DNA of 64,000 bases from Oscillospiraceae bacterium. GTDB taxonomy: Bacteria; Bacillota; Clostridia; Oscillospirales; Oscillospiraceae. The notes under the pieces are model-generated. The model did not search any database, had not been told where the DNA came from, and saw nothing but the letters and a program-made list of their open reading frames with translations. Made by a program: the position numbers and the translations under genes. Every line of letters starts with the position of its first letter. The first letter of the stretch is position 1. The DNA is taken from assembly GCA_902778275.1 (NCBI GenBank), contig CACYXE010000001.1, forward strand, positions 223,062 through 287,061, in the 5' to 3' direction. Below, piece by piece: positions 26,017 to 29,514 of the stretch.

Positions 26017-26217
26017 TTACTTCATGCCGTTCTCGTAGGCCTCGATCATCTTCTTGACCATCTGGCCGCCCACGGAACCGGCCTGACGGCTGGTCAGATC
26101 GCCGTTGTAACCGTTCTTCAGGTTGACACCGACCTCAGAAGCGGCTTCCATCTTGAACTTATCCATTGCCTCACGGGCAGCGGGGTTCACAAGCTGGTTG
26201 TTGGAACTGGTAGACAT
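26017..26217 (-). CDS. Alpha/beta-type small acid-soluble spore protein
   Basis: A 66-residue DNA-binding spore protein. It shows the whole family pattern: NNQLVNPAAREAMDKFKMEAASEVG with the germination-protease site at FKMEAASE, then GYNGDLTSRQAGSVGGQMVKKMIEAYE. Such proteins saturate spore DNA, protect it from UV and supply amino acids on germination. It is direct evidence that the organism forms spores. AAAGGAG precedes the ATG. Transcription should depend on sigma-G in the forespore; I see only a weak candidate upstream. Confidence 0.96.
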   Translation of the reverse strand: MSTSSNNQLVNPAAREAMDKFKMEAASEVGVNLKNGYNGDLTSRQAGSVGGQMVKKMIEAYENGMK

Positions 26218-26406: not shown

Positions 26407-26898
26407 ATGAAGGATAAAAAACACAAAAGAAGACTCATCCTGTACGCAGTGCTGACGTTTGCCGTCATGTGCTTTATTTTTGCCATGTCCGCACAGGACG
26501 GAGAAAAATCCGGCAGCTTGAGCAACAGTTTTTTGGGCAGCCTTCTGGGCAGCTTTTTGGAAAAGGTTCTTCCGCACTTGAGTGATAAGGGAGCTGCTTA
26601 TGATATTCGAAAGTATGCTCATATGTTTGAGTATCTATGCCTCGGCATCAGCAGCTGCCTGCTGATGGCAGAATGGTTTTTACCGCAAAAGAGCAGGAAA
26701 ATCAAAGCCCCGGCCGCCGCATACCTGTTCTGCTTTCTGTACGCCTGTTCCGACGAATGGCATCAGAGTTTTGTGCCCGGGCGCGTGGGGAAGTTTGCTG
26801 ATGTCCTTGTGGATTCCGCGGGCTTTTTCCTGGGGATCCTCACAATATCTTGTGTTTTTTTGGCAAAGTCGCTTGACAAGAGGAAGGAGAAAGGGTAA
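26407..26898 (+). CDS. VanZ family membrane protein
   Basis: A 163-residue protein with four hydrophobic segments. Family marks: FAMSAQDGEKSGSLSNSFL after the first segment, KYAHMFEYLCLG, and the conserved SDEWHQSFVPGR with DVLVDSAG. VanZ gives low-level teicoplanin resistance in enterococci by an unclear route; most chromosomal homologues have no known role in resistance. Here it lies 50 bases ahead of the P-type ATPase-like gene and is probably co-transcribed with it. Confidence 0.88.
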   Translation: MKDKKHKRRLILYAVLTFAVMCFIFAMSAQDGEKSGSLSNSFLGSLLGSFLEKVLPHLSDKGAAYDIRKYAHMFEYLCLGISSCLLMAEWFLPQKSRKIKAPAAAYLFCFLYACSDEWHQSFVPGRVGKFADVLVDSAGFFLGILTISCVFLAKSLDKRKEKG

Positions 26899-26947
26899 CC
26901 TTTCTATAGAATGGATCGTTTAAGATTTACTATATAGAGGTATGCGT

Positions 26948-28942
26948 ATGGCAAAACACCTGGAACAGGGCGGCGGAAAACACAAAGGCAAAACAGAAGT
27001 CAGGAAAACGCTGAACTTCGGTGATGCAAAGCTTCCCGAGCTGCCTAAGGTTTTTCATAGAAAGAGGAAAAAGAAAAGATATTCCAAAACTTATGACCGG
27101 GTGTTTTCACTGCAGGAAATTCTCCCGGTCCTGTTGGCAGTGGTTTTGTTCCTGGCTTCGTGCTTTGCACCCATGGCCGGCTGGCCAAAGATCGCGGGTT
27201 TTGGTCTTGCTGCGCTTCTTGCGGCATTCCCGCTGCTTCAGCGTCTCGCAGGGAAAGTGCTGGACAGGAAACTGCCTGATGAGGATCTGCTGATCGCGGT
27301 CGCTGTCATTCTGGCCTTCGCATTGAAAGAATATGCTGCGGGCGCTATGGTCATGATCCTGTACCGGACAGGTGAATTGCTGGAGGCCTTTGTGCTGACC
27401 GCCGGCGACGGCGCGCTGGAACCTTTTCACGATCTGCTTCCGGAGAAGGCAAGACTGGAATCGGGCGAAGGACCTTCTGATACAGTGCCTGAGAGCCTTG
27501 CGGTCGGGGACGTGGTTCGGGTACTCCCCAAGGAGGCGTTCCCGGCCGACGGTGTGATCCTGCAAGGAAACACCAAAGCGGATTTTTCTCCTCTCACAGG
27601 CGGGGAAGATGTAAGGATTCTGAGCGCAGGCGGCGAAGTATATGCCGGCTGTTACAATGACGGCGGGGAGGTCCTGGTTCGCGTTACCCGGCTGTTTGAG
27701 GACAGCGCTATGGCGGTACGCCTCAAGCATCTGAGCGCGGTTTCAAAGAGCAGGACCCGCCAGGAAAAGCTCATTGCCAAGGCGGCTACCTTCTATGTCC
27801 CTGCCATTGCAGTGCTGGCCTTGGCCATTGGCGTCATCGTCCCGCTCAGCGGAGGCGAGTGGGCCAAATGGCTGAAACGGGCGGCTGTGATCCTGCTTTT
27901 ATCCTCTCCAAGTGCGCTGGTGCTCTCTGTGCCCCTTGCGTACCGGGGCGCCATTCAGAACGCAGCCAAAAATGGCGTTGCTGTCAAGGCGCAGGAAAAG
28001 ATAGCTGACCTGGCCAGAACAAAGACGATGATCTTCGGAAAGACCGGAACGGTGACCACCGGCGAGTATACCATCACGGATGTATTCCCGGATGGCGTTG
28101 AAGCAAAGGCTCTGCTCTCCATGGCCGCTGCCGCGGAGAGCCATTCCCAGCATCCCATCGCTGTGGCCCTGAAGCGGGCGGCGGGATGGACGGAAGCTGT
28201 GGGCGCCAGCGTTTTGGAGGTAGAGGAGCTTCCCGGCCGCGGCGTCAGTGCCTTTATTGAAGGGCGGCACGTGTACGTCGGAAACGCTTCTCTCCTGGAG
28301 GAGCATGGGATCTGGTACAAGGTGCCCAGCCGCGCAGGCGCTGCGATCCACGTGGCGGTCGAGAACGTGTACTGGGGTCATATCATGGTCAGCGATAAAC
28401 CCCGTGAGAACGCGTTTGACGCGCTTGAAGAGCTTCGGATGCAGGGGATCGGCAATATGGTCATGCTGACCGGCGACGTCCTGTCCGTGTCCAGACCCAT
28501 TGCATCGTCTCTTAACTTCGATATGGTGAAGGCCGAGCTGTCCCAGCAGGGGAAGCTCTCCGCCATCGACTATCTCCAGGCCGCAAAAGGAGACCGGTCC
28601 AGACTTTGCTACGTGGGTGACGGCATCCACGACAGTGAATTGATGCAGAGAGCGGATCTTGGCATCGCCATGAATGCGCTCCGGGCCGAGAATGCCATGG
28701 AATCGGCAGACTTTGCGGTCCTTGGAAACGATATCATGACGCTTGCCGTTTTGATGAAAGTTTGTGTTTCCGCTTACAGGATCGCGTGGACCAATACCTT
28801 CTTCATGGCTGCCGTGAAACTGATCCTCCTGATTTTGGCCGTGACCGGCGTTTTGCCGCTGCTCGTTGCGGCAATCATCGAATTGATTTCCACAGGCCTG
28901 CTGATGTTTTATGCGCTTAGCGCTTATGGGATCCGACGATAA
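26948..28942 (+). CDS. Degenerate heavy-metal P-type ATPase (likely catalytically dead)
   Basis: A 664-residue intact protein with the P1B ATPase layout: basic N-terminal tail without a metal-binding CxxC, paired membrane helices, actuator domain, helices, P and N domains, two last helices. But the hallmarks are changed. The phosphorylated Asp of DKTGT is glycine (GKTGT, G364; codon GGA at 28037). The membrane metal site CPC is SPS (320-322). TGES is TGGE (217-220). GDGxND is GDGIHD (N to H561). The nucleotide HP motif (SHSQHPIA) and general fold remain. It therefore cannot form the phosphoenzyme and should not pump by the usual cycle. The full-length frame implies selection. Role unknown; a regulatory or scaffold job is a guess. 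ATG 26948 fits GAGG seven bases upstream. Confidence 0.88.
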   Translation: MAKHLEQGGGKHKGKTEVRKTLNFGDAKLPELPKVFHRKRKKKRYSKTYDRVFSLQEILPVLLAVVLFLASCFAPMAGWPKIAGFGLAALLAAFPLLQRLAGKVLDRKLPDEDLLIAVAVILAFALKEYAAGAMVMILYRTGELLEAFVLTAGDGALEPFHDLLPEKARLESGEGPSDTVPESLAVGDVVRVLPKEAFPADGVILQGNTKADFSPLTGGEDVRILSAGGEVYAGCYNDGGEVLVRVTRLFEDSAMAVRLKHLSAVSKSRTRQEKLIAKAATFYVPAIAVLALAIGVIVPLSGGEWAKWLKRAAVILLLSSPSALVLSVPLAYRGAIQNAAKNGVAVKAQEKIADLARTKTMIFGKTGTVTTGEYTITDVFPDGVEAKALLSMAAAAESHSQHPIAVALKRAAGWTEAVGASVLEVEELPGRGVSAFIEGRHVYVGNASLLEEHGIWYKVPSRAGAAIHVAVENVYWGHIMVSDKPRENAFDALEELRMQGIGNMVMLTGDVLSVSRPIASSLNFDMVKAELSQQGKLSAIDYLQAAKGDRSRLCYVGDGIHDSELMQRADLGIAMNALRAENAMESADFAVLGNDIMTLAVLMKVCVSAYRIAWTNTFFMAAVKLILLILAVTGVLPLLVAAIIELISTGLLMFYALSAYGIRR

Positions 28943-28953
28943 AGAGCTTGTTT

Positions 28954-29514
28954 ATGAACGTTTACGATTTTGATCAGACCATATTCAATCCGGACAGCTC
29001 CTATGCCTTTGTGCTGTATTGCCTGCGCCACTATCCCCGGGCTGTTCTGCATGCGGCGCCCGGAATGGCCGCTTTTGGCGTTCTGCATCTGGCAAAGAAG
29101 GCGGACACAAGAGCGCTGAAGGAGAAGGTCTTCGCCTTCCTGCCGAGACTGGATGACGTGGACCGCATCGTCCAGGAGTTTTGGAAGGAGAATTGGTCCA
29201 GGCTCGAACCGTGGTATCTGGAGCAAAAGCGGGAGGACGATCTGATCATCTCCGCATCCCCGCGTTTTCTCCTGCAGCCGGTTGCGGACCGCCTTGGCGT
29301 ACAGTTGATCGCTACACCAATGGATAAGCATACGGGAAAGATCATCGGCAAAAACTGTCATGATTTTGAAAAGGTCACGCGCTTCTATGCGGCGCATCCC
29401 GATGGTAAGCCCGAGTCGTTTTATTCCGACTCTTTGTCGGACGCCCCTATGGCCAGGATCTCACAGCAGGCGTTCCTGGTCCGAAAAGGGGAGCGCGTCC
29501 CCTGGCCTCTGTAA
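28954..29514 (+). CDS. HAD-superfamily phosphatase (subfamily IB-like)
   Basis: A 186-residue cytoplasmic hydrolase. Motif I is YDFDQTI (DxDxT), motif II ISASPRF with the conserved Ser, motif III K in the following region, and motif IV SDSLSDAPM (acidic pair). This is the IB group (phosphoserine phosphatase and phospholipid-head phosphatase-like). The start is 12 bases after the stop of the P-type ATPase-like gene, so the two are co-transcribed; ribosome site weak, with an alternative TTG two codons earlier. Substrate unknown. Confidence 0.85.
   Translation: MNVYDFDQTIFNPDSSYAFVLYCLRHYPRAVLHAAPGMAAFGVLHLAKKADTRALKEKVFAFLPRLDDVDRIVQEFWKENWSRLEPWYLEQKREDDLIISASPRFLLQPVADRLGVQLIATPMDKHTGKIIGKNCHDFEKVTRFYAAHPDGKPESFYSDSLSDAPMARISQQAFLVRKGERVPWPL

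Follow-up and report, generated by a model that had tools for sequence, protein, structure and literature searches.

Introduction

P-type ATPases are defined by an aspartyl-phosphate, and the described systems closest to the gene examined here are the P1B heavy-metal ATPases (ZntA/CadA; NCBIfam TIGR01525, structures 7qbz and 4umv/4umw). The gene lies at positions 26948–28942, on the forward strand, of a 64,000-nucleotide stretch of DNA, referred to below as the window, from an Oscillospiraceae bacterium (assembly GCA_902778275.1, contig CACYXE010000001.1, 223,062–287,061, forward strand), and it encodes a 664-residue pseudo-P1B-ATPase in which the frame is intact and the catalytic and ion motifs are degenerate. 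Its product has the same fold and domain order as the P1B pumps and is detectably homologous to them, but it belongs to a family that, unlike those pumps, never keeps CPC, DKTGT, TGES and GDGxND together (0 of 91 members); the membrane helices of the family have also diverged, and nine members lack the actuator (A) domain.

The precedents that we found for such a protein are eukaryotic. Human TMEM94/ERMA (PMC12134183, PMC13322241) has a P-type architecture with a DKQGI phosphorylation loop, GSSANL in place of GDGVND, and no TGES; one study found that the protein binds nucleotide but lacks ATPase activity and disputed that it is a pump, and the other reports Mg2+ transport. Compared by description rather than by sequence, TMEM94/ERMA differs from the family in being a eukaryotic endoplasmic reticulum protein that keeps the aspartate, has ten transmembrane helices and is of disputed function. 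Plasmodium PfGCbeta is described as having a degenerated ATPase domain (PMC6592433); this comparison, too, is by description and not by sequence, and PfGCbeta differs in being of the eukaryotic P4 type with guanylate cyclase domains in the same protein. A literature search covering few subscription journals and little of bioRxiv turned up no account of a pseudo-P-type ATPase in bacteria. The window protein is best read as a pseudoenzyme, and for its protein class and domain of life we found no case described.

Results

An intact P-type ATPase frame with four altered motifs

The earlier note on this DNA had claimed a complete frame, four hallmark motifs changed together and a retained HP motif, and we found all three. 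The frame is open over 664 codons from an ATG at 26948 to a stop at 28940–28942, with an alternative in-frame ATG two codons earlier at 26942. Sequence and family alignment place TGGE in the position of TGES (residues 217–220; 27596–27607), SPS in that of the metal-site CPC (residues 320–322; 27905–27913), glycine at residue 364 (codon GGA; 28037–28039) where DKTGT has its phosphorylated aspartate, giving GKTGT, and GDGIHD, with H561, in place of GDGIND (residues 557–562; 28616–28633), all on the forward strand. The HP motif is at residues 402–403, within a nucleotide-binding (N) domain that spans residues 373–483 (28064–28396, forward strand) and contains E397, H402, G430, G432, G445 and N446; the A domain, the part missing from nine relatives, spans residues 165–262 (27440–27733, forward strand), and the limits of both domains are approximate and our own. 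The window protein matches the Pfam families E1-E2_ATPase (E 4.5e-29) and Hydrolase (E 4.8e-19), and it passes the NCBIfam model TIGR01525, 'heavy metal translocating P-type ATPase', at 362.8 bits against a cut-off of 346.25; its score with TIGR01512 (311.8 bits) is slightly below the cut-off of 313.5.

The AlphaFold2 (AF2) model of the window protein shows the full P-type fold, with a mean predicted local distance difference test score (pLDDT) of 84.6, a predicted template-modelling score (pTM) of 0.79, and low confidence at residues 1–51. The best Foldseek E-value (2.9e-39) is with 4umw, a zinc P1B-ATPase, and the best TM-score among the 50 matches listed (0.80) is with 7r0g, a copper-type P1B-ATPase; by phmmer, the nearest solved structures are 7qbz, a cadmium ATPase (E 1.2e-53), and 4umv, a zinc ATPase. 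L151, a relative without the A domain and probably identical to the L335 gene, is likewise modelled with confidence (pLDDT 87.7, pTM 0.83), and its nucleotide part matches the ATP-binding domains of CopA and CopB. The AF2 alignments include canonical pumps, and the models show compatibility with the fold rather than function. A simple hydropathy scan of five members merged neighbouring helices.

That the altered letters stem from a base miscalled in sequencing or assembly is a negligible possibility, because the nearest relative, L065 (67% identity), comes from another genome and has the same GKTGT, SPS and GDGIHD. To the question of whether close relatives keep DKTGT the answer is no: among the 18 rows of the clade that holds the window protein, residue 364 is glycine in 16 and serine in two. 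Error and recent loss are both ruled out by the same letters in L065 and by the degeneracy of 90 other members.

Occurrence of the family in the genus

We took a census of the family in all 102 genomes of the window's genus, which comprises uncultured Oscillospiraceae/Ruminococcaceae gut bacteria, using a profile (A2) built from residues 425–548 of 19 members. The profile matches 92 of the 102 genomes at 144.6–212.9 bits, the next-best match in the genus scoring 131.6 bits, and the other ten genomes have no match above 140 bits. Relatives found in this genus-wide search range from 67% down to about 32% identity to the window protein, and there are no stops inside any of the 92 matches. Among genomes with completeness of 90% or more and contamination of 5% or less, the family is present in 33 of 34, G312 being the exception. 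We analysed 91 of the 92 members, excluding that of G339, where the match is cut and the frame is 235 amino acids. As far as these genomes tell, nearly all sampled species of the genus retain an intact pump-derived gene without the pumping motifs.

Wider searches place the family in this genus. Other matches listed from 300 genomes of the taxonomic family are 31–37% identical; the same-genus matches L007–L009 and L030 are degenerate, with different letters. Among 394 genomes of the order we found no pseudo-pump beyond the genus: the profile maximum outside the window's own genome is 131.6 bits among the matches listed, none of which comes from another genome of the genus, and the 29 loci found outside that genome in this search all have DKTGT. 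A scan of named genomes gave seven pseudo-pumps (L125–L130, L151) among the 80 loci listed, all from Oscillospiraceae or Ruminococcaceae metagenome-assembled genomes, including Sheep_Omasum and Roe_deer_Abomasum; these seven are probably the same records as genus genomes G358, G326, G378, G362, G394, G374 and G317 and hence not independent evidence. The remaining 73 loci keep both the aspartate and the glutamate of TGE, and CPC is present in 67 of these; since the other six lack CPC yet retain both residues, loss of CPC alone is not decisive.

Motif and domain losses differ between members

At position 364 the 91 members have Asp (29), Gly (26), Ser (14), Asn (11), Glu (9), Cys (1) or Thr (1). 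TGE is intact in two (L079, L080), CPC in one (L087) and GDGxND in 20, whereas the canonical comparison set keeps Asp, TGE, CPC and GDGxND in 16 of 16. No member combines Asp with an intact TGE: the 29 Asp keepers all lack an intact TGE, and 28 of them lack CPC and 25 GDGxND. The earlier note had asked whether homologues share the Gly and SPS changes; L065 does, the family at large does not, and a single glycine common to all members is ruled out, as the letter at 364 varies by clade.

Nine members (L122–L124 and L331–L336) have lost the whole A domain by an in-frame deletion, and their N and P domains stay conserved; L263, which is truncated by its contig, was scored as an A-domain gap and not as a loss.

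Several members have unusual sequences of their own. The most eroded that we saw is L330 (G332), which has FGMTGT and TGN for TGD, lacks GDGxND, and in whose genome we detected no HAD gene. Three members (L324, L326 and L329) have NKTCT in place of DKTGT. The proteins of L118–L121 and L338 (702–953 amino acids) have long N-terminal extensions ahead of the first helix, acidic in L118, and their starts are uncertain. Among the Asp keepers L097, L101, L102, L106, L111, L116, L117, L340 and L343, one group has SQxY[SA] in place of CPC and another has SGQRSP in place of TGES; these newly fixed letters may mark a new function.

The nucleotide pocket is conserved and the membrane part is not

Six residues (T366, E397, G432, G445, K536 and P460) are invariant in all 91 members, and K365 (90), D510 (90), N446 (89), H402 (84) and G430 (83) are nearly so. 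We take E397, H402, the GxG motif and N446 to correspond to the ATP pocket of ATP7B and CopA, and T508 and K536 presumably occupy the places of phosphate-binding motifs II and III in the HAD fold. Mean pairwise identity was determined by domain for the family and for 18 canonical pumps, with domain limits of our own and with L001 left out of the canonical means. The N domain is about as conserved in the family as in the pumps (0.49 vs 0.51), whereas identity in the membrane part is far lower (0.25 vs 0.69 for M1–M2, 0.30 vs 0.70 for M3–M4, and 0.27 vs 0.64 for M5–M6). The A domain (0.37 vs 0.60) is also lower in the family, and the two parts of the P domain (0.52 vs 0.72, and 0.47 vs 0.64 for residues 484–606) are intermediate. 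Positions invariant in canonical pumps are retained on average at 0.77 in the N domain and at 0.28–0.41 in the core membrane helices (0.28 in M1–M2, 0.41 in M3–M4). This is the pattern that would be expected if selection had held nucleotide binding but not transport.

The family also has fixed letters of its own that are absent from canonical pumps, namely H4 (58 of 61 members), P460 (61), E494 (61) and Y542 (59); F490 and F524 are likewise specific to the family, and an N-terminal M-[AGSP]-[KRE]-H is present in 66 of the 91 members.

The poor conservation of the membrane part bears on whether the protein could be a transporter that works by other chemistry, either as a facilitator, passive or gated by ATP, or, among the Asp keepers, as a pump with an altered cycle of the kind claimed for ERMA. 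Retention of Asp in 29 members and the fixation of new ion-site letters such as SQxY[SA] in some clades are compatible with this, and Mg2+ transport is reported for ERMA, which has DKQGI and lacks a canonical TGES (PMC13322241), a claim disputed by PMC12134183. Nonetheless, we regard a transporter as improbable, given the low identity and the few canonical-invariant positions retained in M1–M2 and M3–M4, the nine members that have dispensed with the A domain, and at least six changes between Asp and non-Asp on the family tree.

Purifying selection and descent

We determined the ratio of nonsynonymous to synonymous substitution (dN/dS) by the Nei-Gojobori method for the 40 closest pairs among 61 members. 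The values range from 0.060 to 0.328, far from 1; for the window protein and L065 dN/dS is 0.136, with dS, at 1.86, near saturation. When eight close family pairs were pooled by domain, dN/dS was 0.133 for the transmembrane (TM) part, 0.142 for A, 0.106 for N and 0.047 for P, and two canonical pairs from the genus gave 0.117, 0.108, 0.105 and 0.141 respectively; with pairs that were hand-picked and few (8 vs 2), the pseudo-pump gene is under constraint comparable to that on a canonical pump, and its P domain is held more tightly.

These data bear directly on the view that the gene is a relic on its way to loss, under weak or no selection. Such a view could draw on the long branches of the family, the variation of motif letters between clades, the state of L330, with FGMTGT and no HAD gene detected, and the ten genus genomes without a match. 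However, the dN/dS values, the frames free of stops, the positions invariant in every member, the family-specific fixed residues and the presence of the family in all but one of the most complete genomes make it very improbable, and for the family as a whole a neutral relic is ruled out by dN/dS well below 1. From this conservation we infer, as the earlier note had suggested, that the protein is a pseudo-pump kept for another purpose.

The family forms one clade. A quick maximum-likelihood tree, computed with the four motif columns removed and without bootstraps and rooted on a long branch, separates all 56 family rows from the rest by a branch with a Shimodaira–Hasegawa-like approximate likelihood ratio (SH-aLRT) support of 100; six near-duplicate family rows and C_L010, which is the same gene as L252, were omitted. 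The letter at 364 has changed at least nine times on this tree, including the changes between Asp and non-Asp noted above. The canonical sister group of the family is not settled, the deep canonical forks being uncertain and the root lying on a long branch.

Pairing with a HAD phosphatase gene

The earlier note had pointed to a HAD phosphatase gene 12 bases downstream and a VanZ gene upstream as possible partners. The downstream gene is real and encodes an HAD-IB type phosphatase (28954–29514, forward strand; identified by Pfam, NCBIfam and family alignment), but the gap is 11 bases, from the stop codon to the ATG at 28954. The protein is above the cut-off of Pfam HAD and below that of NCBIfam TIGR01490 (53.3 bits; cut-off 98.3), and a PDB sequence search found no convincing relative of it (best E 0.4). 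In 88 of the 91 loci the pseudo-pump gene is followed on its own strand by a HAD phosphatase gene, which ends no more than 1120 bases past the pseudo-pump; in 23 of them a gene that we take to be nitroreductase-like intervenes. The residues D5, D7, T9, S102, K140, D159 and D163 (numbered from the ATG at 28954) are identical in all 88; we take the DxDxT, Ser, Lys and DSxxD to which they belong to be the HAD-IB catalytic positions, all of which are present in the window gene.

Of the 102 genus genomes, 91 carry both genes, eight have neither, one has the pseudo-pump alone (G332) and two have the HAD gene alone (G312 and G355; 40% identity); some of the unpaired or absent genes are accounted for by contigs missing from incomplete genomes. 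The HAD protein is not universal, being found at E 1e-15 or better in 26 of 150 genomes of the taxonomic family.

The VanZ gene is likewise real (26407–26898, forward strand; Pfam and NCBIfam), but the proposed VanZ–ATPase–HAD order is conserved in its HAD part and not in its VanZ part. VanZ is upstream in 25 of the 91 loci, within 800 bases in 22, and is therefore a weak candidate for a general partner. ArsR-like genes lie directly upstream in eight loci and obg is present in 30. Genes that we take to be SpoIIIAA-like follow the HAD gene in 41 loci (L065, L071–L077 and others), accompanied by further, presumably spoIIIA-like genes, and a spore-protein-like gene is near the pseudo-pump in 39, upstream in 38. 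In the window, a gene presumed to be small acid-soluble spore protein-like (26017–26217, reverse strand) diverges from the VanZ gene. All of these counts are over the 91 loci, some of which have short flanks. The VanZ, obg, spore-protein-like and SpoIIIAA-like neighbours vary by clade, whereas the HAD gene hardly varies.

The same gene pair occurs with a complete ATPase. In g102, another genus of the same taxonomic family, an ATPase adjoins the same HAD gene in four loci (L252, L255, L253 and L235); the order and the homologous HAD are as in the window, but these ATPases differ from the family in that TGES (TGEA in L255), CPC, DKTGT and GDGxND are complete. An ArsR-like gene is upstream in L252 and L255, none was detected in L253, and the contig of L235 starts within the ATPase gene. 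The pairing of ATPase and HAD is therefore probably older than the loss of the motifs, and the ArsR-like context in g102 and in eight pseudo-pump loci suggests descent from an export operon under metal regulation.

In L232 and L233 (G041 and G130) a similar HAD gene is upstream of a P-type ATPase, in the reverse order; these ATPases have DKTGT and GDGVND, and no CPC by pattern. Pairing of HAD proteins with P-type ATPases may thus have more than one origin.

The g102 loci lend some weight to the idea that the pseudo-pump acts alone, as a membrane scaffold or a lipid- or ligand-binding protein, and that the HAD gene is merely a co-inherited operon neighbour, as do G109 and G264, in which the pseudo-pump remains and a HAD homologue is encoded elsewhere; furthermore, TMEM94, a eukaryotic protein of the same fold, holds a buried lipid according to PMC12134183. 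We consider this idea unlikely, as it does not sit easily with retention of the pair in 88 of 91 divergent loci while the VanZ, ArsR-like, nitroreductase-like, SpoIIIAA-like and obg neighbours come and go, nor with the membrane part being the least conserved.

Other P-type ATPases in the window genome

The window genome still encodes canonical metal pumps: a ZntA-like copy (L002) adjoining an ArsR-like gene, and a second canonical copy (L001). Two more P-type ATPase homologues are present at G000:C57 and G000:C2 (L003 and L005), one of them below the Pfam cut-off.

Discussion

We think it rather probable that a zinc/cadmium-type pump has become a membrane-anchored, ATP-binding pseudo-pump that keeps the fold and the nucleotide pocket and probably works with the HAD phosphatase. 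The phosphorylation cycle and the metal path would have been lost, as the sequences show directly for members without the aspartate and as seems likely for the Asp keepers, and the pseudo-pump would then be unable to make and clear an aspartyl-phosphate. The invariant pocket residues suggest that ATP binding persists in the cytosolic N and P domains, the predicted contacts being a pocket of E397, H402, G430–G432 and G445–N446, with K365-T366-G367, T508 and K536 binding phosphate. The helices, which are present in the models and poorly conserved, would be left mainly as a membrane anchor. The ATP-bound domain could then present a nucleotide-dependent docking or control surface to the HAD protein, as the conserved pairing and the complete HAD active site suggest. 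The lack of transport in the family as a whole, and a physical partnership between the two proteins, are what we infer from these patterns of conservation.

Several observations weigh against this interpretation. The aspartate is retained in 29 of the 91 members, and in three of these the glutamate of TGE survives as well, within a changed motif (TAET in L090 and L342, VGES in L102); because both residues are kept there, some Asp-keeping members might still autophosphorylate. The P domain is less conserved than in canonical pumps (residues 484–606 in particular), and even the N domain retains on average only 0.77 of the canonical-invariant positions. Since the canonical pairs have similar dN/dS, these ratios show constraint and not which function is constrained. 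The HAD pairing has exceptions: the genomes of L112 and L115 (G109 and G264) encode their HAD homologue elsewhere, and none was detected for L330. Lastly, the presence of the pair in g102 means that it may be an inherited operon rather than a new partnership.

A further, more tentative proposal, which we hold to be possible rather than probable, is that an ArsR–pump–HAD metal-export operon has been converted into an ATP sensor in the membrane that governs the HAD protein, with stages from a near-complete pump to an A-domain-less protein preserved in the living species of a single genus.

Because the window protein passes the NCBIfam cut-off for heavy-metal pumps, predictions of metal resistance in these species may overcount pumps by including it. 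The family offers some ninety natural variants, with D, G, S, N, E, C or T at one position and with or without the A domain, for dissecting the functions of the parts of a P-type ATPase. A pseudo-pump of this kind would show that the P-type fold can be reused in bacteria, the N domain being conserved while the phosphorylation site, the metal site and the A domain decay.

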